IMG/VR virus record: IMGVR_UViG_3300005530_000061
Location: 1 to 30,731 of that record
From: a virus
Reading direction: 5' to 3' (one strand)
DNA length: 30,731 bases
A program made the translations under genes and the position numbers. Positions 1 to 15,768 of the stretch are shown here, in pieces. The notes beneath the pieces are model-generated. The model had not been told where the DNA came from. It did no database searches and saw nothing but the letters and a program-made list of their open reading frames with translations. The first letter of the stretch is position 1. Each line of letters opens with the position of its first letter.

Positions 1-225
1 AGCCGGTCTGACGCTGGCGGACGCTCGGTAGACGATCTGCTGTCGCCGGGCGAGGTCGCGCGGATCCTGAACGTCAACCCGCGGACTGTCACACGGTGGG
101 CGCACGAGAACCGGCTCCCTAGCTGCCGGACCCCTGGGGGCCATCACCGGTACCGGTATGGGGACGTGCTTGCGATCCTACGGCCGGCGCATCCGGGGGA
201 GAAATCCCCGGACGATCCCACTTGA
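1..225 (+). CDS. MerR/BldC-type helix-turn-helix protein (5' end missing)
   Basis: The reading frame is open from the first base of the window to TGA at 223-225, giving the last 74 residues of a protein whose start lies outside. It carries a compact helix-turn-helix of the HTH_17/MerR/BldC/excisionase kind: LLSPGEVARILNV, then PRTVTRWAHENRLP, then the wing GGHHRYRYGDVLAIL. In this family the wing motif G-H-x-R-(Y/F) contacts DNA. The protein is therefore probably a small phage transcription regulator or, less likely, a recombination directionality factor. It ends just before promoter P1, so it could regulate P1, but this is inference. A short acidic and charged tail follows the wing. Confidence 0.8.
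   Translation, partial: SRSDAGGRSVDDLLSPGEVARILNVNPRTVTRWAHENRLPSCRTPGGHHRYRYGDVLAILRPAHPGEKSPDDPT
192..212 (+). terminator. Possible intrinsic terminator ahead of P1
   Basis: A perfect 7-bp inverted repeat, tccgggg (192-198) and ccccgga (206-212), with a 7-nt A-rich loop, lies in the last codons of the HTH gene and just upstream of promoter P1. There is only a weak T-rich stretch after it. Its position between a gene end and a new promoter suggests termination of the upstream transcript. It could also be chance in GC-rich coding DNA. Confidence 0.35.
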
Positions 226-251
226 TTTCCCCTCGGAAGTCACCTTATACT
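222..251 (+). promoter_or_regulatory. Promoter P1 (sigma70-type)
   Basis: The -35 TTGATT (222-227) and -10 TATACT (246-251) are separated by 18 bp. The same hexamers with the same spacing recur at 9866-9895 and 15739-15768, each time in a gap ahead of a gene. P1 and P2 also share flanks: CACTTGATT around the -35 and CACCTTATACTA around the -10. It should drive the first operon, with transcription starting near 258. The match to the host housekeeping consensus suggests early transcription by host RNA polymerase (inference). Confidence 0.85.
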
Positions 252-286
252 ACTAGCATGCACACACGCGAACGCACCCCCTGGGC

Positions 287-5277: not shown

Positions 5278-5763
5278 GTGGAGCTCTTCGTAGCAAGCAA
5301 GGAGATCGAGTTCGACGCTGGGCACAGAGTGCCCAACCACAGGTCGAAGTGTCACAACCCGCATGGGCATCGTTATCGCGTCCGCGCAAACGCGTCAGGC
5401 CCCCTGTGCCAAGAGGCTGGGGACTCGAGCGAAGGGATGGTCGTCGACTTCGGCGACCTCAAGGAACTGCTGACGACTCGCGTCCACGACGTCTTGGACC
5501 ATGGGTTCATGGTGTACGCGGACGACCGCATGATGCTCAACGCCCTCCACCCAGCGTCCACCCTCGGGTCAGGCCCGGACTGGAAGGTCATCGTCTTGCC
5601 GTTCGTGCCGACCGCGGAGAACCTCGCCAAGTGGGTGTTCGACCAGGTCCAGCCGGAGCTACAGGACCGCTGGGGAGAGCTGTTGTGCCTGACCTCCATT
5701 GACTTGTGGGAGACACCCACAAGCCTTGCGAGGTACAGCCGTGCCGATCCGCATTCCGGCTAG
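5278..5763 (+). CDS. queD: 6-carboxy-tetrahydropterin synthase QueD
   Basis: A 161-residue protein of the 6-pyruvoyl-tetrahydropterin synthase family. QueD converts 7,8-dihydroneopterin triphosphate to 6-carboxy-5,6,7,8-tetrahydropterin, the second step from GTP to preQ0. Seen: zinc ligands His16 (DAGHRV), His29 and His31 (CHNPHGHRY), catalytic Cys25 in the same motif, and the DFGDLK segment typical of the family. GTG at 5278 is preceded by AGGTG and keeps the N-terminal beta strand complete. It is the first enzyme of the module. Its end overlaps the zinc-finger gene, and folE, which supplies its substrate, lies two genes downstream. Confidence 0.93.
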   Translation: MELFVASKEIEFDAGHRVPNHRSKCHNPHGHRYRVRANASGPLCQEAGDSSEGMVVDFGDLKELLTTRVHDVLDHGFMVYADDRMMLNALHPASTLGSGPDWKVIVLPFVPTAENLAKWVFDQVQPELQDRWGELLCLTSIDLWETPTSLARYSRADPHSG

Positions 5764-5932
5764 TCCGACCTGTCACATCTGCCTGAGGGAGGTACGAGGC
5801 TTTGACCCGCATTGTGGGCGTTGCGGACGACAGTTCCACATCAAGTCCTGCGGTGGAGTTGAGCGGTTCGACGTCGGACGAGAACGTCACCTCGAATACT
5901 GCTGCGAGGCCTGTGCGTCTTCTGATCAGTGA
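5741..5932 (+). CDS. PHD/RING-like C4HC3 zinc-finger microprotein
   Basis: A 63-residue protein nested between queD (overlap 23 bases) and queE (overlap 20 bases). GTG at 5741 follows GAGG. Its metal-ligand order is Cys11-x2-Cys14, Cys25-x2-Cys28, His33-x3-Cys37, Cys55-x2-Cys58, the C4HC3 order of PHD fingers and close to RING. The core HCGRCGRQFHIKSC resembles the centre of such domains. Those folds bind peptides or partner proteins in eukaryotes; in phages they are mostly uncharacterised. Its place inside the modification operon suggests a partner or regulator of the modification enzymes, but nothing in the sequence proves this. A plain zinc ribbon is the alternative. Confidence 0.65.
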   Translation: MPIRIPASPTCHICLREVRGFDPHCGRCGRQFHIKSCGGVERFDVGRERHLEYCCEACASSDQ

Positions 5933-6644
5933 GGTGTTCGGCAATACGTTCCAAGGCGAGGGTCCTAGCACAGGGCGGCACTGCGTGTTCGTTCGGACCG
6001 CCAGGTGCAACCTGCACTGTGCGTGGTGCGATACCCCGTACACCTGGGCCTGGACACCACAGCTAGCACAGCGGCACCACTCACGTGTGGTGTACCAGAA
6101 GACCGAGGAGACGCAACTCCTAGACGTCGACGAGGTGGTAGCGCGTGTGACGGAGATCTGTGCTGCACCCACCACAGTCGTCGTCAGTGGTGGGGAGCCG
6201 CTGCTGCAGAAGGACGGTCTCCTCGCGTTGCGAAAGCCCTTGCACCTACTGGGACACCGCATTGAGGTCGAGACGGCTGGGACACGTACTCCTGGGCAGC
6301 TGGCACACCTGATCGACCAGTGGAACGTGTCCCCGAAGCTCCGCCACAGCGGCAACGAAGACTCGTTGCGCATCCAGCCGAACAACCTCCGGGAGTTCGC
6401 GGAGCTGGACCATGCCCACTTCAAGTTCGTGTGCCGGAACGTGGACGACCTGTGGGAGGTCGCGCGGGACTTCGTCTCACCCTACAAGATCCCACGCGCA
6501 CGAGTGTGGATCATGCCCGAGGGTACGACCCCAGACGTGATCCTGGAACGCATGCGGGAACTCGCTGACCCCGTGCTCGAGTACGGATGGAACCTGACCA
6601 CACGACTCCACACGCTGTTGTGGGGAGAGGAGCGAGGACGGTAG
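5913..6644 (+). CDS. queE: 7-carboxy-7-deazaguanine synthase QueE (radical SAM)
   Basis: A 243-residue radical S-adenosylmethionine enzyme. QueE turns 6-carboxytetrahydropterin into 7-carboxy-7-deazaguanine by ring contraction. Seen: the N-terminal SEVFGNTFQGEGPSTG motif, the iron-sulfur motif Cys32-x3-Cys36-x2-Cys39 (CNLHCAWC), and SGGEPLLQ for SAM binding. GTG at 5913 is chosen because the family normally begins a few residues before the E-x-F-x-x-x-Q-G-E-G motif. The frame is open back to 5802, but that stretch is low-complexity shadow of the zinc-finger gene. It ends in TAG directly followed by the folE ATG. Confidence 0.93.
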   Translation: MRLLISEVFGNTFQGEGPSTGRHCVFVRTARCNLHCAWCDTPYTWAWTPQLAQRHHSRVVYQKTEETQLLDVDEVVARVTEICAAPTTVVVSGGEPLLQKDGLLALRKPLHLLGHRIEVETAGTRTPGQLAHLIDQWNVSPKLRHSGNEDSLRIQPNNLREFAELDHAHFKFVCRNVDDLWEVARDFVSPYKIPRARVWIMPEGTTPDVILERMRELADPVLEYGWNLTTRLHTLLWGEERGR

Positions 6645-7253
6645 ATGACCACGCAGCAGGAGGACAAGGCCGGCCTACGGGCGGCGGTCGTCGAGATGGG
6701 TCAACAAGAGATGCTCGAGTTCGCGGTGCAACTCCAGCTCATGGCCCTCGGGTACGACGACACTGATCAGCACTTCGTACGGACGCCGCAACGTGTCGCA
6801 AAGGTGCTTCAGGAGTTCGCCCTGGGCAAGGACGAGACCCCGAAGGACATCCTCGAGGCGGTGTTCGACGACGAGCACGACTCCATGGTCGTGGTCGGCC
6901 CGACGCAGATCGTGTCGTTCTGCGCTCACCACATGCTCCCGGTACGAGGGCAGGCATGGGTCGGGTACATCCCCGACGGTCGTGTGGTGGGTATCTCGAA
7001 GCTGGCACGGATCGTGCACTTCTTCGGGAAGCGGTTCACCGTCCAGGAGCGCGTGACCCAACAGGTGGTGGAGGCGCTGATGCTGTACCTCGCACCGCTC
7101 GGGGCCATGTGTGTCATCCAGGCGGAGCACGGGTGCATGTCCATCCGGGGTGTCCGCGAGCCAACAGCAGTCACCTCGACCAGTGCGGTCCGGGGTGTGT
7201 TCAAGGACGACCCAGCTGCGCGGGAAGAGTTCCTGCGCCTCACAGGAAGGTAG
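6645..7253 (+). CDS. folE: GTP cyclohydrolase I FolE
   Basis: A 202-residue type I GTP cyclohydrolase. It opens GTP to 7,8-dihydroneopterin triphosphate, the first step of 7-deazaguanine synthesis. Seen: the zinc site Cys93 and His96 in SFCAHHMLP, plus Cys164 in AEHGCMSIRGV with His162 before it; the GISKLARIVHFFGKRFTVQERVT block is strongly family-like. ATG at 6645 abuts the queE stop with no gap. A phage-borne copy lets the virus raise flux from GTP beyond the host's folate needs. Here it clearly serves the deazaguanine module, because queD, queE and queC surround it. Confidence 0.95.
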   Translation: MTTQQEDKAGLRAAVVEMGQQEMLEFAVQLQLMALGYDDTDQHFVRTPQRVAKVLQEFALGKDETPKDILEAVFDDEHDSMVVVGPTQIVSFCAHHMLPVRGQAWVGYIPDGRVVGISKLARIVHFFGKRFTVQERVTQQVVEALMLYLAPLGAMCVIQAEHGCMSIRGVREPTAVTSTSAVRGVFKDDPAAREEFLRLTGR

Positions 7254-7257
7254 GCCG

Positions 7258-8061
7258 ATGCGCCTGTGCAACATCGTCCCGGTCTCGTTCCTCGACGACG
7301 TGCTCGACAGTGACGAGAGGACTCACCTCGTCATCGCTGACCGGATCGTCGAGGACGAGACCTACCTCGATTTCTACCAGGACCGGAAGGACCGCGGGGA
7401 CTTCATCATCCTCGACTCCTCCGCGTTCGAGACCGGAGCCGCGAACACCGACATGCTCATGGAGGCGTGGCACTACCTGCAGCCCAACGAGGTAGTGCTG
7501 CCGGACCTGTTCAACGCTCCGAACAAGTCCACCGAGTGGACGAAGGCACAACTACTCCGGATGCGTGAGCTGGGTCTACCGCCGAACGCGCGACTGATGG
7601 CAGTCCCGCACGGCAACACGCTCGAGGCGTACATGGAGTCAGCACGCACCCTGGCGAGCCTGACCGGCGTCAAGACGATCGGCATCCAGGAGGAGGTCCA
7701 GGAGCTGTTCGGCCAGCCACGCAGCCGGATCGTCAAGCTGTGCCAGCGGCTGCCTGTGACCATCCACCTGCTGGGATTCCAGGAGGACCTCGAGGACCTG
7801 AAGGACGAGTGGAACCAGCGGAACGTCCGCTCGGCGGACTCCGCGAAGCTCGTCGTGTGGGGCCTGAACGGCATGGCGGTACCGGTCGACGGCCGCATTC
7901 CGGAGTACCCGGGCCGGAAGAGTGTCGGTGGCGGTCTCGAGTACCTCAGCTACGACATCCCGGAGAAGGTCGAGGGCGTGGACCCGCCGAAGGTGAGCCG
8001 TGACGACGCGGTGAGCCGGATCCTCAGCAACATCAAGACGTGGCGGAAGGTGGTCCAGTAG
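7258..8061 (+). CDS. dpdA: DpdA-like DNA guanine transglycosylase
   Basis: A 267-residue protein related to tRNA-guanine transglycosylase and phage DpdA, which swap guanine in DNA for a 7-deazaguanine base. Seen: FIILDSSAFETG with Asp53 at the place of the TGT D-S-G-G motif, MAVPHGNTLEAYMESAR, TIGIQEE and HLLGFQ blocks in the order of a TGT barrel, and a late SADSAKLVVWG with Asp194 as a candidate second catalytic acid. ATG at 7258 follows the folE stop by four bases; the longer open frame is shadow. Unlike classical TGT, no C-x-C-x2-C zinc cluster is present and the protein is short. This fits phage DpdA forms. It is placed between folE and gat-queC. Confidence 0.85.
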   Translation: MRLCNIVPVSFLDDVLDSDERTHLVIADRIVEDETYLDFYQDRKDRGDFIILDSSAFETGAANTDMLMEAWHYLQPNEVVLPDLFNAPNKSTEWTKAQLLRMRELGLPPNARLMAVPHGNTLEAYMESARTLASLTGVKTIGIQEEVQELFGQPRSRIVKLCQRLPVTIHLLGFQEDLEDLKDEWNQRNVRSADSAKLVVWGLNGMAVPVDGRIPEYPGRKSVGGGLEYLSYDIPEKVEGVDPPKVSRDDAVSRILSNIKTWRKVVQ

Positions 8062-8062
8062 C

Positions 8063-9550
8063 GTGTGCGGGATCATGGGGGTCGTCTCGCTGGGCGTGCT
8101 CGACCACGGCTTCGAGTACGACCAGACGGTCAAGGACCTGCAGGAGACCTGGCACCGTGTAGCCGACCGCGGCCGGGACAGCTGGGGCTTCGCGTACGTC
8201 GGTGAGACCCACACCGTTCGGTTCACCAGCGCGTCCGACCCAGACTATGAGCGCGGGTGGGTCCGGCACACGCCGTACGTTGGTGTGGGAAACCGTCGGG
8301 GTGAGCCGACCACGGAGTGGGTCCAGACCAAGACGGACCACGACGTACAACCGTTCACCAGTCCGTCAGGCCGCTGGGTGTTCACCCACAACGGGACCAT
8401 CGCGAACGACAAGGAGATCTACGCCGACTCCACCGTCCCGGCACGTGAGTGGGACGTTCGCCCACCGACTCTGATCGACAGCTACGCCATCGGCGTGATG
8501 CTGGACCGTGAGGGGTGGGACGCAGGGATCCGCAAGCTGGTAGGGTCGTTCGCGATCCTCGCCATAGACACCAAGAACCCAGACCGGCTGTACGTCGCGT
8601 GCAACTACAAGCCGCTGTTCCTGCGCAGCCGGAGGACGCACCGCGGGCGCGTCGTACAGGTCGCGTCGCAGATGCGACACCTAGCCCACCACTACGACCC
8701 GTTCCTGGATCCCGGCATCCACGAGATCCCACCGTACAGCATCGGCTGGGTCACCGACCGGGAGATGGAGTTCGGGTCACTGTACGGGCCGAGCCCGAAC
8801 CTCGAGCGGGAGAAGGTTCTCGTGATCTGCTCCGGTGGGCTCGACAGCGGAACGGTCGCATGGCTGTACCACACGCGTGGCCTGGAGGTCGAGCTAGTCC
8901 ACTTCGAGTACGGTGCACGAGCACAGGGGCCCGAAGTCACTGCGGTTGAGGCGTTAGCCAACGCGATGCAGTGTCAGGCGACGTTCCTCACCGTGGACTT
9001 CTTCGCTCACCATGCGAAGTCAGTCCTCACCAACAAGGACCACGGCGAGATCACGAAGCAGCGTGACGGCGAAGCAGGCGCAGAGTTCGCCCACGAGTGG
9101 GTACCTGCACGCAACACAGTGTTCATGGCCCTGGCGATGGCGTACGCAGAGAAGCACGGGCACGACGTCATCGCGTTCGGTGCGAACATGGAAGAGGCAG
9201 GCGCCTACCCGGACAACGAACCTGAGATCATCAACCGGTTCAACGCCCTCGTGCCGTACGCGGTCAAGCCGTACAAGCGCCTGCGGATCGAGTCCCCGAC
9301 GGCGAACCTCGTCAAGCACGAGATCGTCCGTGAGGGCCTAGAGCATGGGATGCCGTTCGAGCTGACGTTCAGCTGCTACGAAGCCCAAGCGGGTCGCCAC
9401 TGCGGAACGTGCGGCCCCTGTGCCATGCGGAAGCGAGCTTTCGCCATGAACGGGACGGTCGACCCGGTCTTCTCGGATGCGTGCCAACGGTTCCACCCCA
9501 GCGAGAAGTGCGAACCCGGTCGCAACCATCCTGCAGCAGCGCTGTCGTGA
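8063..9550 (+). CDS. queC: Glutamine amidotransferase-QueC fusion (Gat-QueC)
   Basis: A 495-residue two-domain protein. The first half (about 1-235) is a class II glutamine amidotransferase: nucleophile Cys2 in MCGIMGVV, the ADRGRDSWGFA loop, and His109-Asn110-Gly111. The second half is QueC: PP-loop SGGLDSG (257-263) for ATP, and a zinc site of Cys438, Cys447, Cys450 and Cys453 (RHCGTCGPC). QueC makes preQ0 from 7-carboxy-7-deazaguanine. Gat-QueC fusions are known from crenarchaea that make archaeosine and from phages such as the 9g group with dG+ in DNA. GTG at 8063 exposes Cys2 at the exact family position. The amidotransferase half would supply ammonia from glutamine to form the amidine (G+). 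Confidence 0.92.
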   Translation: MCGIMGVVSLGVLDHGFEYDQTVKDLQETWHRVADRGRDSWGFAYVGETHTVRFTSASDPDYERGWVRHTPYVGVGNRRGEPTTEWVQTKTDHDVQPFTSPSGRWVFTHNGTIANDKEIYADSTVPAREWDVRPPTLIDSYAIGVMLDREGWDAGIRKLVGSFAILAIDTKNPDRLYVACNYKPLFLRSRRTHRGRVVQVASQMRHLAHHYDPFLDPGIHEIPPYSIGWVTDREMEFGSLYGPSPNLEREKVLVICSGGLDSGTVAWLYHTRGLEVELVHFEYGARAQGPEVTAVEALANAMQCQATFLTVDFFAHHAKSVLTNKDHGEITKQRDGEAGAEFAHEWVPARNTVFMALAMAYAEKHGHDVIAFGANMEEAGAYPDNEPEIINRFNALVPYAVKPYKRLRIESPTANLVKHEIVREGLEHGMPFELTFSCYEAQAGRHCGTCGPCAMRKRAFAMNGTVDPVFSDACQRFHPSEKCEPGRNHPAAALS

Positions 9551-9852: not shown

Positions 9853-9865
9853 CCGAAATCCCCAC

Positions 9866-9895
9866 TTGATTGTACAGTGGGTTCCACCTTATACT
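9866..9895 (+). promoter_or_regulatory. Promoter P2 (sigma70-type)
   Basis: TTGATT (9866-9871), an 18-bp spacer and TATACT (9890-9895), the same as P1, with shared flanks CACTTGATT and CACCTTATACTA. It lies in the short gap between the deazaguanine operon and the repair-polymerase operon. A 6-bp inverted repeat, cccact (9861-9866) and agtggg (9876-9881), overlaps the -35 and could be an operator. The leader to the first start (9919) is only about 15 bases. Confidence 0.85.
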
Positions 9896-10560: not shown

Positions 10561-10955
10561 TGCCAACGTGGTCCAAGGACTTCGAAGCGCTGTCCGAAGA
10601 GGAGCGCGCGGAGATCAAGGCGTACCTTCACGACACGACCAAGACGCCACTCTCTGACCTCGAGCTACGGGCCGTGTACTGGCTCCGCGAGTGTGGGTTC
10701 GTCGAAGGTGCGGACTTCAACTGGCAGTACCGGATCGGCCAGTATGTCGTCGATCTGCTCCATCCAGGAGACCGCATCATCGAGTTGTACGGCTGTGGGT
10801 ACCACCAGCACGGGTGTCTCGGTCGACCATGGTGGCCGGATGTCATCGCAGCTGACGAACGACGCCAGAAGCGACTCGAAGCTGCCGGGTTCCAGTTCGA
10901 CGTGATCTGGAACTGCGAGGACGTCGAGTTCCGACTGATGGACCTGATGCAATGA
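10560..10955 (+). CDS. Vsr-like (EDxHD-type) endonuclease
   Basis: A 131-residue nuclease-like protein. The core strand YVVDLL (Asp65), then RIIELYGCGYHQHGC with Glu75, His82 and His84, then AADERRQKRLEAAGF (Asp99, Arg101, Arg102) and VIWNCED resemble very-short-patch repair endonuclease Vsr. In Vsr the matching segments are a G-C-F-W-H-x-H motif followed by a D-R-R-x-x-R-L-x-x-x-G-W helix and a V-x-W-x-C strand. The family includes T:G mismatch nicking enzymes and some homing endonucleases. It is coupled to its neighbours on both sides, so it behaves as an operon member, not an obvious insert. Its target is unknown; a DUF559-type nuclease is the alternative. Confidence 0.72.
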   Translation: MPTWSKDFEALSEEERAEIKAYLHDTTKTPLSDLELRAVYWLRECGFVEGADFNWQYRIGQYVVDLLHPGDRIIELYGCGYHQHGCLGRPWWPDVIAADERRQKRLEAAGFQFDVIWNCEDVEFRLMDLMQ

Positions 10956-11509
10956 GGGTGTGGCGCATCCCGTTCGGGGAACTCGACGACCAACGCGCCC
11001 TGGCGCAGCACCACGAGGTGCACATGCTGTACAACCTGCTGCAGCTGGGTCGGAACTGGAACGGGCTCTCGTTCCCAGACAACCTCGCGTACGTCATCGC
11101 GGTACACGACTCTGCGGTCGAGGAGATGCAGCTACGTGGGTTCAACGGCCACCAGACGCCACTACCCGAGCCACCAGGCGACCCAGGCGTGTGGCCGTGG
11201 CCAACCGAAGAGGATCTCCGCACCGACCGCTGGCACCTCGTACTTCGGTGGGACGGTGCGTACCAGGGGCGGATGCTCCCAGGACCGGAAGTCCAGGCAG
11301 AGTACGCTCGACTGATCGAGCGGTACGAAGCACAGGGTGGGTGCCTGCACGATGGCCCCGTTGAGAAGGGCGAGGGCAAACGGAAGGGGCTCGCCCTGTG
11401 CCTGTTGTGCAAGCGCGCTACCAGAGCGCAGGTGTGGCTGCCAAAGCAGCAACGCTACGAGACCGGGCCGTGGGAGCTCGGGGGATGGAGTAGGAACGAT
11501 GCGAACTGA
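10952..11509 (+). CDS. T4 endonuclease V (DenV)-like pyrimidine-dimer glycosylase with C-terminal Cys domain
   Basis: A 185-residue protein. Its N-terminal part matches the Pyr_excise family: GELDDQRALAQHHEVHMLY aligns in order with the S-E-L-A-D-Q-H-x-M-A-E-Y-R-E-L segment of T4 DenV. Glu22 sits at the catalytic glutamate, and LRGFNGHQTPL corresponds to the later R-G-F-N block. T4 DenV has Thr2 as nucleophile; here residue 2 is Arg, as far as the ATG 10952 start allows. The last 55 residues add a Cys-containing extension (GCLHDG, then LCLLCK) that may bind zinc. The role would be removal of UV photoproducts from phage DNA. The start overlaps the Vsr-like stop by ATGA. Confidence 0.65.
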   Translation: MRVWRIPFGELDDQRALAQHHEVHMLYNLLQLGRNWNGLSFPDNLAYVIAVHDSAVEEMQLRGFNGHQTPLPEPPGDPGVWPWPTEEDLRTDRWHLVLRWDGAYQGRMLPGPEVQAEYARLIERYEAQGGCLHDGPVEKGEGKRKGLALCLLCKRATRAQVWLPKQQRYETGPWELGGWSRNDAN

Positions 11510-12002
11510 CACGCTCGTCCGTGGCTCTGCTGATGTCGTGACGGTCGTCAGGCTGCGGAAGCACGACGTGTACAAGCGCCTCGATAAGGAGGGGTACGGT
11601 GACACGTACGTCCTTCGGTTCGGGATCGTGACGGACGTGCTGTACAACGGCGAGGACACCGCCATCACTGCGATCGAGTTCCGGCAGGCGTATGCAGGGC
11701 AACCTGTCGTCACGGAGCTCAAGGTCTTCGGGACGAACAGCGACCTCAAGCTGTTCTACGCGGAGCCGGAGGAGATCACGACCCACCTCGGGAGCATCCA
11801 CGATGACGCGATCAAGACGCTGGAGAAGGCTCAGCAGGAGCTGGCGCGTGCTCAGGTCCTGGTCGCGACCGTCGAGCAGGTGCGCCGAGAGACCGGTACG
11901 CTGCAGCTCATGGCTCCGATCACTTCCCCGACCGTCGAGGTCGAAGGTTCTCGCGTCGAACCACAGCCCGAGGAGGGGACGGATGAGCAGCCAGCTTTCT
12001 GA
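11499..12002 (+). CDS. Hypothetical protein with C-terminal coiled coil
   Basis: A 167-residue protein starting at ATG 11499, with GGAG and AGGAACG purines upstream. Residues 1-90 look like a small beta-rich domain (VVTVVRLRKHDVYKRLD, YVLRFGIVTDVLYNGEDTAI). Residues 95-130 form a helix (AIKTLEKAQQELARAQVLVA), followed by an acidic, Pro/Glu-rich tail. No family is recognised. It overlaps the DenV-like gene by 11 bases and the next gene by 20 bases. Confidence 0.6.
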   Translation: MRTDTLVRGSADVVTVVRLRKHDVYKRLDKEGYGDTYVLRFGIVTDVLYNGEDTAITAIEFRQAYAGQPVVTELKVFGTNSDLKLFYAEPEEITTHLGSIHDDAIKTLEKAQQELARAQVLVATVEQVRRETGTLQLMAPITSPTVEVEGSRVEPQPEEGTDEQPAF

Positions 12003-12696
12003 CGACGCGCGGTCCTACTTCGCGAAGTATCGCACGTGCTGCGGTACGCCCTTCGAAGCGTACCACCTCGAGGACTGCCCCCATGCGAACGTCGCCGAGG
12101 CTAAGGCATTCTCGCCGTATCCCCGTAACCAGCGCTCGGTCTTGCTGGACCTGGATGACCCGTGGCACAGGGCGATCGCCATGCTGCTTGACACCCACGA
12201 GACCAAGGGTGCTGACTACGCCCGGGACCACGACCAGTTCGACAACTTCCACACTACGTCGGAGCAGTTCAACCTCCAGCACTACGAGGCTGGAGAGTTC
12301 AACTGCGTGCAGAAGCTGGCCCGCCTGCGTAGCCTTCGTGCCAACGGTCGGGCACCGCAGAACGAGTCCGTTGAGGACACGTACAAGGATCTCGCGGTGT
12401 ATGGCGTCCTCACGTACGCCATGTACCTGCAAGCGGTACACGCGAGCAAACCACAGGTAGCCCAGGGCATCTCGAAGGCTCCCGAGGGATCTGTACCGGG
12501 TGAGTCTAATGTTGCCCAGACACAGATCCCTACGGAAACCCCAGGAGTGGAACGCGGGATTCCTGAGCAGTGTCGTGCCGACTTCGAGCGTGCGGGCGTG
12601 CACCACACGTGCGTCTTCCCACGGTACCACCGCCAGGGGGCTCAGGACGTTCAGCCGGATCGGCACTACCACCCGGCCGTGGGATACTGGGAGTGA
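11983..12696 (+). CDS. DUF1599 / nucleotide modification associated (Nmad1)-type protein
   Basis: A 237-residue protein starting at ATG 11983 behind AGGAGG. Residues 60-155 carry the pattern of DUF1599, named nucleotide modification associated domain 1: HETKGADYARDHDQFDNF, then FNCVQKLARLRSL, then NESVEDTYKDLAVYGVLTYA. The conserved K-x-x-D-Y, N-F, R-L and E-S-x-x-D-x-x-x-D-L-x-x-Y features are all present. The N-terminus has CCGTPFEAYHLEDCPH (possible metal site). Known for the family: comparative genomics links it to phages with modified DNA bases; its reaction is not established. Its presence beside the deazaguanine operon supports a nucleotide-related role. It overlaps the polymerase start by GTGA. 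Confidence 0.7.
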   Translation: MSSQLSDDARSYFAKYRTCCGTPFEAYHLEDCPHANVAEAKAFSPYPRNQRSVLLDLDDPWHRAIAMLLDTHETKGADYARDHDQFDNFHTTSEQFNLQHYEAGEFNCVQKLARLRSLRANGRAPQNESVEDTYKDLAVYGVLTYAMYLQAVHASKPQVAQGISKAPEGSVPGESNVAQTQIPTETPGVERGIPEQCRADFERAGVHHTCVFPRYHRQGAQDVQPDRHYHPAVGYWE

Positions 12697-15323
12697 ACCG
12701 GGAGCAACTCCTCGCCCTGTGTGAGTGCGACGCGTGTCCACTGAAGGAGAACCGTGACAGAGGACTCGGACCAGTTCTGGGCAGCGGTACGGAACGACCC
12801 ACAATGGTCCTCGTTGGAGAGGCGCCAGGCCGCAGCGAGGTCTCGGACGGTCGCCCGTTCTCGGGGCCGTCGGGCAAGCTACTCGATGCGACCCTCGCGG
12901 AAGTTGGTTCAAGCCGCGAAGCGGTCTACATCACCAACACTGTCCTCTGCCGACCTACAGATGCTCAGGGAAATGACGCTCCACCCGCTCCGGCTGCTGT
13001 CAGGGCCTGTAGCCAGAGACTTGCTGCTGAGGTACGCAGTGTCGGGAGCTCAGTTGTTGTCGCTGTGGGAGGAACAGCAGCAACAGCTCTCACGGGAGCT
13101 GCGAAGGTCAGCGACGTTGTGGGAGCACTACATTTCAGCGAACCTCTAGGCCGGTACGTACTCCCGACGTACCACCCAGCAGCAGTACTCCACGGTGGCA
13201 CGGGCTTCTTCGACGACATCTACAACACCCTCTGGCGTGCGCACAGGCTGAGCACAGGGGTGGTGCCCTTGCCGAAGCCTGGCGGGCCGGAACTCGACTG
13301 GCACCTCATCCTCGACCCGGACGCTGCGATCAGTTGGCTGGACACCCTTCGGACGCGACCGTTCATCGTGATCGACACAGAGTCCACGGGCACCAAGTGG
13401 ATGACGGACCGGTTCATCATGCTCCAGCTGTACTGGGGCACGGGTACGGCCATCGCCATCCACGCCGACGCGTTCACCGGTCCGGTCCGAGCGTTGATGC
13501 AACAACTGCTCCGCGACCGACGCATACGGTGGGGCATGTGGAACAAGGCGTACGACCTGCAAGTGGTCCGTGCGGTGTTCGACGTGGACCTGAACGAGCG
13601 CCCGGACGACCATGTGCTCGATGGGATGTGTCTCGCTGCGGGGTTGACGGAGCGGATGGAGCAGCAGTCCCTCAAGTACCAGGCCCGGCAGTGGCTCAAC
13701 GCGTCGTACTACGAGAAGGAGCTCGCCGACAGCGGGTTCAAGTGGGGCATGTGGCCCGACGAGAAACAGACCCTCGCGATGGCCAAGTACGGCTGCCTTG
13801 ACGTGTACTACACGTGGGAGCTGCTACGACTGCTGCCTGACCTGGTCCGCGAGGAAGGTACCATGGACCTCGCACGAGACTTGCTCAACCCGGCGCAGGC
13901 CAGCTTCGCAGACATCGAGTTCGAGGGGTGCAAGGTCGACCTGGAGTACGCAGCCGGACTGGAGGAACAGTGGCTACCGCTGATCGAAGAGGCGCGGGAC
14001 AAGATCCAGGTCTACGCTCAGGCGCAGGGCTTCCCGAAGAACGAGAAGCTGATCCAAGCGCAGCAGATTGGCGTGCCGTGCCCGGACTGTACCGCTGGCT
14101 CGAGTCACGCATCCGTACTCGGCGGCGATCGCAAGTTCTGGCGATCGGAACTCCAGGCGACCCCATTCGGCGATCCCTCCTGCACGCGTTGCATGAAGCG
14201 TCGCTTCATTCTCGTGCCAGACCGACGCTTGAACGTGAACTCCTACCCCCAGATGCAACACCTCGCGTTCGACATCCTGAGGATGCGGATGGCGGACGGG
14301 AGACGCAGCTGTGACGAGTCGTGGATGGCCGTCAACGGGACGCACCCGCTGGTCGAGATGCTCAAGGAGTACCGCGAGCGGAACCACCTGCTGACGAACT
14401 ACATCCGCAACATCGCTCAGCACACGTGGCCAGACGGTAGGGTCCACCCTGACTTCCTCATCGGGGGCACTGTCACAGGGCGGCTCGCCATCCACAACCC
14501 GCCACTACAAACTCTCCCCAAGTGGGGTGTGAACCCGGAGATGTCGAAGCTCATCCGTCGCATCTTCGTCCCGTGGGCAGACGACGAGGTGATCGTCGAC
14601 ATCGACTACAAGAACCTCGAGCTGTTCATCGCGTGGCACTACAGCGGTGACGAGAACCTCGGGCACGCCCTAACTGGTCTCCGACCCGACGGCACGCCCA
14701 TGGACTTCCACACCAACACCGCCAGTGCGATCTTCGCCAAGGCGTACGAGGACGTGACCGGGTTCGACCGCTTCAACTCGAAGTTCGTCACCTTCGGGAT
14801 CGCGTACGGCAGGCAAGCGTACTCACTCGCACAGGGTGAGCTCAAGGAGATCACCGGTGGCGACGAACGCAAGGCGCAGGAGTACATCGACCGGCTGTGG
14901 GACATGTACCCGAAGTGGGCGGACCAGTACTTCCGGTGGCAGGACGACGCGCTCACGAAGGGTGAGCTCGTCACGACGCTAGGTCGGAAGCGCCGCTGGC
15001 GACTCATCACGCCGCAGACAGTCAACGCCATCAAGAACCAGGCCGTCAACTTCCCGATGCAGAGCCTCGCGAGTGATACGTGCCTCAGTGCGCTGATCCG
15101 CACCAACCGCGGGCTCAAGGAGCGGAAGTGGGGGCGAGTCCTGTTCACCGTCCACGACTCGCTGGTGTACTCCATCAAGCGGGCTCACCTGGATGAGGCA
15201 CTCGACTACATCACCCGCGAGATGGTGACCCCGCCGTACAAGACGCACATCAAGCTCGCAGTCGAAGTCGAAGTCGGACCCTCACTGGGAGAGGTCCAGG
15301 AGTACATCAAGGAGGCAGCATGA
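12693..15323 (+). CDS. Uracil-DNA glycosylase (family 4) fused to family A DNA polymerase
   Basis: An 876-residue fusion. Residues 1-180 form an iron-sulfur uracil-DNA glycosylase: Cys12 and Cys15 (CDACPL), Cys86, Cys106, the GEAPG motif at 42-46 and HPAAV at 161. A 3'-5' exonuclease follows with Asp228-x-Glu230 (IDTES). The polymerase has motif A Asp638 (DIDYKNLEL), motif B ending FGIAYG (Tyr705) and motif C His821-Asp822 (VHDSL). GTG at 12693 overlaps the previous stop by GTGA. Residues 463-500 insert a CPDC and CTRC pair, likely a zinc ribbon. It would replicate the phage genome and may remove or sense uracil ahead of synthesis. A UDG-like part is also known on the phage SPO1 polymerase. 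Confidence 0.93.
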   Translation: MNREQLLALCECDACPLKENRDRGLGPVLGSGTERPTMVLVGEAPGRSEVSDGRPFSGPSGKLLDATLAEVGSSREAVYITNTVLCRPTDAQGNDAPPAPAAVRACSQRLAAEVRSVGSSVVVAVGGTAATALTGAAKVSDVVGALHFSEPLGRYVLPTYHPAAVLHGGTGFFDDIYNTLWRAHRLSTGVVPLPKPGGPELDWHLILDPDAAISWLDTLRTRPFIVIDTESTGTKWMTDRFIMLQLYWGTGTAIAIHADAFTGPVRALMQQLLRDRRIRWGMWNKAYDLQVVRAVFDVDLNERPDDHVLDGMCLAAGLTERMEQQSLKYQARQWLNASYYEKELADSGFKWGMWPDEKQTLAMAKYGCLDVYYTWELLRLLPDLVREEGTMDLARDLLNPAQASFADIEFEGCKVDLEYAAGLEEQWLPLIEEARDKIQVYAQAQGFPKNEKLIQAQQIGVPCPDCTAGSSHASVLGGDRKFWRSELQATPFGDPSCTRCMKRRFILVPDRRLNVNSYPQMQHLAFDILRMRMADGRRSCDESWMAVNGTHPLVEMLKEYRERNHLLTNYIRNIAQHTWPDGRVHPDFLIGGTVTGRLAIHNPPLQTLPKWGVNPEMSKLIRRIFVPWADDEVIVDIDYKNLELFIAWHYSGDENLGHALTGLRPDGTPMDFHTNTASAIFAKAYEDVTGFDRFNSKFVTFGIAYGRQAYSLAQGELKEITGGDERKAQEYIDRLWDMYPKWADQYFRWQDDALTKGELVTTLGRKRRWRLITPQTVNAIKNQAVNFPMQSLASDTCLSALIRTNRGLKERKWGRVLFTVHDSLVYSIKRAHLDEALDYITREMVTPPYKTHIKLAVEVEVGPSLGEVQEYIKEAA

Positions 15324-15733
15324 CGGCAACCAGCGACAAGTCCCACCCACCGATGTCGGCAGTGCGTCGCGAGGTCACGTTCGGCAAGGTGTTCCGAGGC
15401 GAGATCATCACCCTCTGTGGCAGCACGCGCTTCAAGAACGCGTTCCTCGAGGAACAGCGAGCCCTAACGCTCGAAGGCCACATCGTGATCAGCGTCGGGC
15501 TGTTTGGTCACCTTGACGGGACGGACATCGGTACCGCAGAGGACCCAACGGACGTGAAGGTCATGCTCGACGAGCTCCACAAGCGGAAGATCGACCTCGC
15601 AGAGCGGGTGCACGTGATCAACGTCGACGGGTACATCGGATCCTCAACCCGCAGCGAGATCGACTACGCGCGCCTGCGTGGGAAGACCATCACGTACCTG
15701 GAGCAACCCGAGCCGGCAGAAATCCCCGGCTGA
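15320..15733 (+). CDS. Nucleoside 2-deoxyribosyltransferase-like protein
   Basis: A 137-residue protein of the nucleoside deoxyribosyltransferase-like fold. Strand one is IITLCGSTRFKNAFLEE, then HIVISVGLFG, then LDELHKRKIDLAERVHVIN and GYIGSSTRSEIDYARLRGK. This last I-G-x-S-T-x-x-E-I-x-Y-A motif is a hallmark of the family, and the Glu is the candidate catalytic residue. True members move a deoxyribose between bases; many relatives are uncharacterised. ATG at 15320 overlaps the polymerase stop by ATGA. A link to deoxynucleotide pools or modified nucleosides is suggested by its place after the polymerase, but this is inference. Confidence 0.7.
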   Translation: MTATSDKSHPPMSAVRREVTFGKVFRGEIITLCGSTRFKNAFLEEQRALTLEGHIVISVGLFGHLDGTDIGTAEDPTDVKVMLDELHKRKIDLAERVHVINVDGYIGSSTRSEIDYARLRGKTITYLEQPEPAEIPG

Positions 15734-15738
15734 TCCTC

Positions 15739-15768
15739 TTGATTGACGGGCGCGGTGCATCCTATACT
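15739..15768 (+). promoter_or_regulatory. Promoter P3 (sigma70-type)
   Basis: TTGATT (15739-15744), an 18-bp spacer and TATACT (15763-15768), the same hexamers and spacing as P1 and P2. AATCAA (15771-15776) forms an inverted repeat with the -35, flanking the core promoter, and may mark an operator. Transcription would begin near 15775, right at the edge of the leader hairpin. Confidence 0.85.

Follow-up and report, generated by a model that had tools for sequence, protein, structure and literature searches.

Does this locus encode a complete phage pathway that makes a 7-deazaguanine from GTP and places it in DNA, and which base would the DNA then contain? The genes in question lie in a virus genome fragment of 30,731 bases (IMG/VR virus record IMGVR_UViG_3300005530_000061), the whole of which was analysed and is called the window here. 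The reading that we favour, and consider probable, is a phage 7-deazaguanine DNA-modification module that would yield mainly archaeosine (dG+) in DNA as a shield against restriction.

Layout and setting of the cassette

Five open reading frames lie head to tail on the + strand between positions 5278 and 9550, in the order queD, queE, folE, dpdA-like and gat-queC (Table 1), with intergenic gaps of 38, 0, 4 and 1 bases respectively. Four of them have strong matches in both Pfam and PHROGs; the dpdA-like frame is the sole cassette gene that Pfam does not match. The CxxxHGH motif of QueD (as CHNPHGH), the cluster motif CNLHCAWC of QueE and the FolE motifs CAHHMLP and HGCMSIRG are intact. In the fusion protein, the Gat half contains Cys2, RxEPTTE, HNG and IDS, and the QueC half the signature SGGLDS together with C(x)8CxxCxxC. 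The queE frame begins with TTG, has GGAGGT 5′ of it and is uncertain in its exact start; a GGAAGG ribosome site stands 5′ of the dpdA-like start.

Table 1. Genes of the cassette and its neighbourhood, with positions in the window
Feature	Position	Strand	Evidence
QueD (6-carboxy-tetrahydropterin synthase)	5278..5763	+	GTG start; Pfam PTPS E 1.6e-31; phrog_2389 QueD-like E 8.6e-33
QueE (7-carboxy-7-deazaguanine synthase, radical SAM)	5802..6644	+	phrog_2076 QueE-like E 1.8e-54; Pfam Radical_SAM E 4.5e-12
FolE (GTP cyclohydrolase I)	6645..7253	+	Pfam E 6e-59
Predicted DpdA-type DNA-guanine transglycosylase, 267 aa, CP220/immuto/phiST family, not 9g type	7258..8061	+	AF2 model, Foldseek/VIA-align, profile vs PDB, invariant residues
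Gat-QueC (class II glutamine amidotransferase and preQ0 synthase fusion)	8063..9550	+	Pfam QueC E 5e-55, GATase_6/7 E 5e-10; phrog_10428 E 1.4e-105
'Nucleotide modification associated domain 1'-like (DUF1599) protein	11692..12696	+	PF07659 E 0.002, below cut-off
DNA polymerase A with N-terminal uracil-DNA-glycosylase-like (UDG) domain	12570..15323	+	PF00476 E 9e-63, PF03167 E 2.5e-29

The same gene order recurs in three related loci (L002, L030 and L032; protein identity to L002 is 39–44%), and is thus under selection and not due to chance. An earlier note on this DNA had listed the five genes and described their key catalytic residues as visible; the frame coordinates with the Pfam and PHROG matches confirm the first statement and the intact motifs the second. 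Its further claim, that the set covers synthesis from GTP and insertion into DNA, is supported by gene content and families, and judged by sequence the module is a real and complete 7-deazaguanine synthesis-plus-insertion set.

The cassette is preceded by genes for a PD-(D/E)XK exonuclease, a Sak4-like ATPase and a RuvC-like protein and followed by the UDG-DNA polymerase A fusion, which places it in a replication region; tail genes on the opposite strand lie beyond. Since the nearest relatives of the tail protein and the tape measure come from Rhodococcus and Arthrobacter/Mycobacterium phages, the source, an uncultured siphophage, probably has an actinobacterial host. A scan of genome contigs returned a single weak, truncated match in a MAG contig, and so provides no link to a host.

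The transglycosylase and its family

A Pfam search with the 7258–8061 protein gave no match, so the DpdA assignment in the earlier note had rested on motifs and context, and the sole PHROG match (phrog_20335) is labelled 'unknown function'. The AlphaFold2 model, calculated from 23 window and locus sequences, has a mean pLDDT of 91.8 and a pTM of 0.90. Every one of the 27 Foldseek matches in the PDB at E ≤0.001 is a tRNA-guanine transglycosylase (TGT), and TGTs also form the best rows in VIA-align (Z 16.6 over 233 residues, r.m.s.d. 3.7–4.3 Å; archaeal TGT Z 16.5). A profile built from 23 members has one significant match among PDB sequences, 7UI4, a 'DNA-guanine transglycosylase' (E 6.6e-5); a two-sequence profile of the dpdA-like frame returned nothing useful from the same sequences. 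All 29 family members carry the same six residues D53, D83, R155, H170, G173 and D194. The model thus identifies a TGT-fold protein with high confidence, and together with the profile and the gene context assigns it as a DpdA-type transglycosylase, in agreement with the earlier call, which the fold, the 7UI4 match and the conserved aspartates bear out. By TGT chemistry, D194 would be the likely nucleophile and D53 the acid/base, with D83 and H118 reading the base; from motif order and the motifs typical of TGTs, we take the catalytic residues to correspond to D102, D156, Q203 and D280 of the Zymomonas mobilis (Z. mobilis) TGT.

Profile-guided scans with the window transglycosylase brought in about 20 further loci, and its relatives include proteins of phages Youna2, BSTP5/BSP7, StAshley, phiST, immuto (annotated DpdA) and CP220. 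The profile of the whole family matches that of the 9g-type DpdA with 94% probability (E 1.2e-7; reversed and unrelated control profiles <1%), and the two line up at the motifs LDSGAF, LD, H, HGFG and DSS. The window clade alone reaches 8–30% profile probability against DpdA1 and 99.0% against CP220/immuto (99.9% with a larger window-like set), and pairwise profile links across the CP220/immuto/window family are 97–99.9%, the phiST-StAshley pair excepted. Two other parent families were rejected: DpdA1 (9g type), as the window protein matches only phrog_20335 and those of 9g and StAugustine match phrog_887/phrog_7068; and DpdA2, represented by Vibrio phage nt-1, which has the same pathway context as the window and no significant profile match (hhalign probability 2.3%). 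In the tree, the window, L002, L030 and L032 sequences form one clade; CP220 and immuto form a separate, well-supported clade, and the window is not placed inside that clade proper. On these sequence comparisons the window transglycosylase is a member of the very divergent CP220/immuto family and not a 9g-type DpdA. The cassette itself is of a known kind, and its DpdA represents a barely annotated branch related to the CP220 enzyme. This family may correspond to the DpdA3 subfamily; DpdA3 and DpdA4 were reportedly defined by Cui et al. in 2023, with DpdA3 said to be tied to complete dG replacement.

Close parallels to the window occur in named phages. In Youna2 (Weizmannia), BSTP5/BSP7 (Bacillus), StAshley (Brevundimonas) and phiST (Cellulophaga), QueD, QueE and FolE are encoded near a relative of the window transglycosylase, FolE of StAshley being further off than QueD and QueE. 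The clusters of Youna2, BSTP5/BSP7 and StAshley adjoin DNA polymerase A and contain a plain QueC, whereas the window has Gat-QueC; phiST has no QueC nearby. The transglycosylases of these phages are annotated 'hypothetical protein' or 'putative integrase/recombinase'. The latter label is that of BSTP5 (L104:7001-7789), and sister phages call the protein NadR-like or a kinase; all of these are misannotations. The TGT-family transglycosylase of Campylobacter phage CP220 (L106:7001-7777), a phage reported to have fully replaced dG, is annotated only as 'hypothetical protein'. A role can thus be proposed for transglycosylases that occur in phages of several bacterial groups and stand in databases as a family of unknown function (phrog_20335).

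Predicted target and product of the pathway

The two types of DpdA replace each other beside the same partner. Among 74 loci fetched by Gat-QueC alone, 7 encode a window-type DpdA, 59 a 9g-type, none both and 8 neither (several of these 8 are truncated loci). Conversely, queD, queE, folE and/or queC are found nearby in 18 of the 20 loci fetched by the window-type DpdA profile; the two exceptions, L012 and the 4.5-kb contig L010, lack deazaguanine synthesis genes nearby. Gat-QueC accompanies two clades of the family, that of the window with L002, L030 and L032 and that of L009, L034, L037 and L056; the remaining clades have plain QueC or none nearby. As the two types are interchangeable and never co-occur, they fill the same slot beside Gat-QueC, which argues for insertion into DNA over modification of tRNA.

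A transglycosylase that acts on tRNA, within a phage queuosine or archaeosine pathway, would account for a fold shared with tRNA-guanine transglycosylases; it sits poorly with the interchange just described, and with a PDB profile match whose single hit is a DNA-guanine transglycosylase. The cassette, moreover, lies in the replication region of a fragment in which no tRNA gene was found (30.7 kb searched), and all 29 members of the family lack CxCxxC, the zinc/metal motif of TGTs. We consider a tRNA target very improbable. The missing motif also counts against the DNA-modification reading, as does the low identity between the window DpdA and its relatives (about 20–40%; a close one, from L002, is 42% identical and has the same gene order).

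It is still harder to credit that the cassette supplies a free deazapurine metabolite or serves to modify a protein, and leaves DNA untouched. QueC-family proteins have been repurposed in this manner elsewhere, as in Cap9/QatC-like use (PMC13329287), and the window QueC matches Cap9 weakly, but it carries the canonical SGGxDS and C(x)8CxxCxxC signature, and linkage to a DpdA-type enzyme is seen in nearly all relatives.

In the DNA-modification reading, FolE, QueD and QueE would convert GTP to 7-carboxy-7-deazaguanine, from which the QueC half of Gat-QueC would make preQ0. The GAT half would supply ammonia so that the nitrile, either while still free or after insertion into DNA, becomes the archaeosine (G+) formamidine. 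Guanine in phage DNA would be exchanged for the deazaguanine base by the DpdA-type enzyme, and the resulting dG+ would protect the DNA from host restriction enzymes.

Our best guess for the product in DNA is dG+, because Gat-QueC has an intact GAT site, the window lacks QueF, and phages 9g and Vid5 set a precedent. Both carry Gat-QueC and contain dG+ by LC-MS (9g, PMC6884629; Vid5, at 7.55% of G, PMC8306585). The 9g module (folE, queD, queE, gat-queC and dpdA) has the same five functions as the window in a different gene order, and its DpdA (317 aa, phrog_887) belongs to another family; G+ formation by the 9g gat-queC was seen in combination with the DpdA of 9g, not with a window-type enzyme. 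FolE and QueF share a related T-fold. An apparent QueF in the window was rejected, as this single match lies inside FolE and below the cut-off, and four related contigs gave nothing but similar sub-threshold matches; the absence of queF from the window, as first noted, is confirmed. Extra tailoring genes could lie outside the 30.7-kb fragment.

The same module may instead leave dPreQ0 or dADG as the final base, if GAT were inactive or slow or if DpdA preferred preQ0. Such an outcome has precedents in phages with plain QueC, which make dPreQ0, and in the insertion of preQ0 in E. coli by the 9g DpdA alone (PMC6884629), as well as in CP220, whose DpdA is of the window family and which carries dADG at 100% of dG according to earlier work cited in PMC8306585. 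Yet the GAT residues Cys2, RxEPTTE, HNG and Asp are kept in the window, in 9g and in relatives, and the window clade and a second clade pair with Gat-QueC, not with plain QueC. We regard dPreQ0 or dADG as unlikely but worth keeping in mind, and retain dG+.

The earlier note had argued from the 9g group to dG+ and proposed a comparison of Gat-QueC and DpdA with those of phages of known modification. The Gat-QueC part of that argument holds, chemistry included (36% identity to the 9g protein over 94% of its length); the DpdA falls in the CP220/immuto family, and the precedent extends neither to the transglycosylase family nor to the density of modification. Since the window DpdA shares its family with CP220, where dADG is reported to replace all dG, we tentatively propose that this phage may swap most or all guanines for dG+, unlike the partial replacement in 9g-type phages and Vid5, although we find this doubtful. 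The CP220/CPt10 and immuto enzymes have D53, D83, R155, H170, G173 and D194 in common with the window's, but, as CP220 and immuto group apart from the window clade, they do not predict how densely the window phage is modified. Further differences concern gene context: the CP220 gene adjoins a thymidylate kinase gene and has no que genes within 7 kb, and where members of the CP220/immuto clade do have que genes no Gat-QueC was seen beside them, whereas the window has one. If replacement were complete, A, C, T and the positively charged base G+ would make up the genome, through the pairing of a Gat-QueC with a non-9g DpdA. The exchange of two very different DpdA families beside the same Gat-QueC offers a direct test of whether the transglycosylase or the base-making enzyme determines density.

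Neighbouring genes and likely promoters

Genes resembling the UDG-DNA polymerase A lie 3′ of window-type dpdA in many loci, and the polymerase probably replicates the modified DNA. The DUF1599-like gene is also present between Gat-QueC and UDG-DNA polymerase A in L002 and L032; its product may possibly be an accessory to modification. A DenV-like protein, which resembles pyrimidine dimer DNA glycosylases (PF03013, E 3e-7), is encoded at positions 10952–11509.

The box GAAATCCCC occurs three times in the window (201–252, 9855–9895 and 15719–15768), each time followed by TTGATT and, 17–18 bases on, TATACT. Chance would give 0.1 exact boxes, and 1 of 100 shuffles reached three; the three sites are likely to be phage promoters with a common upstream element.
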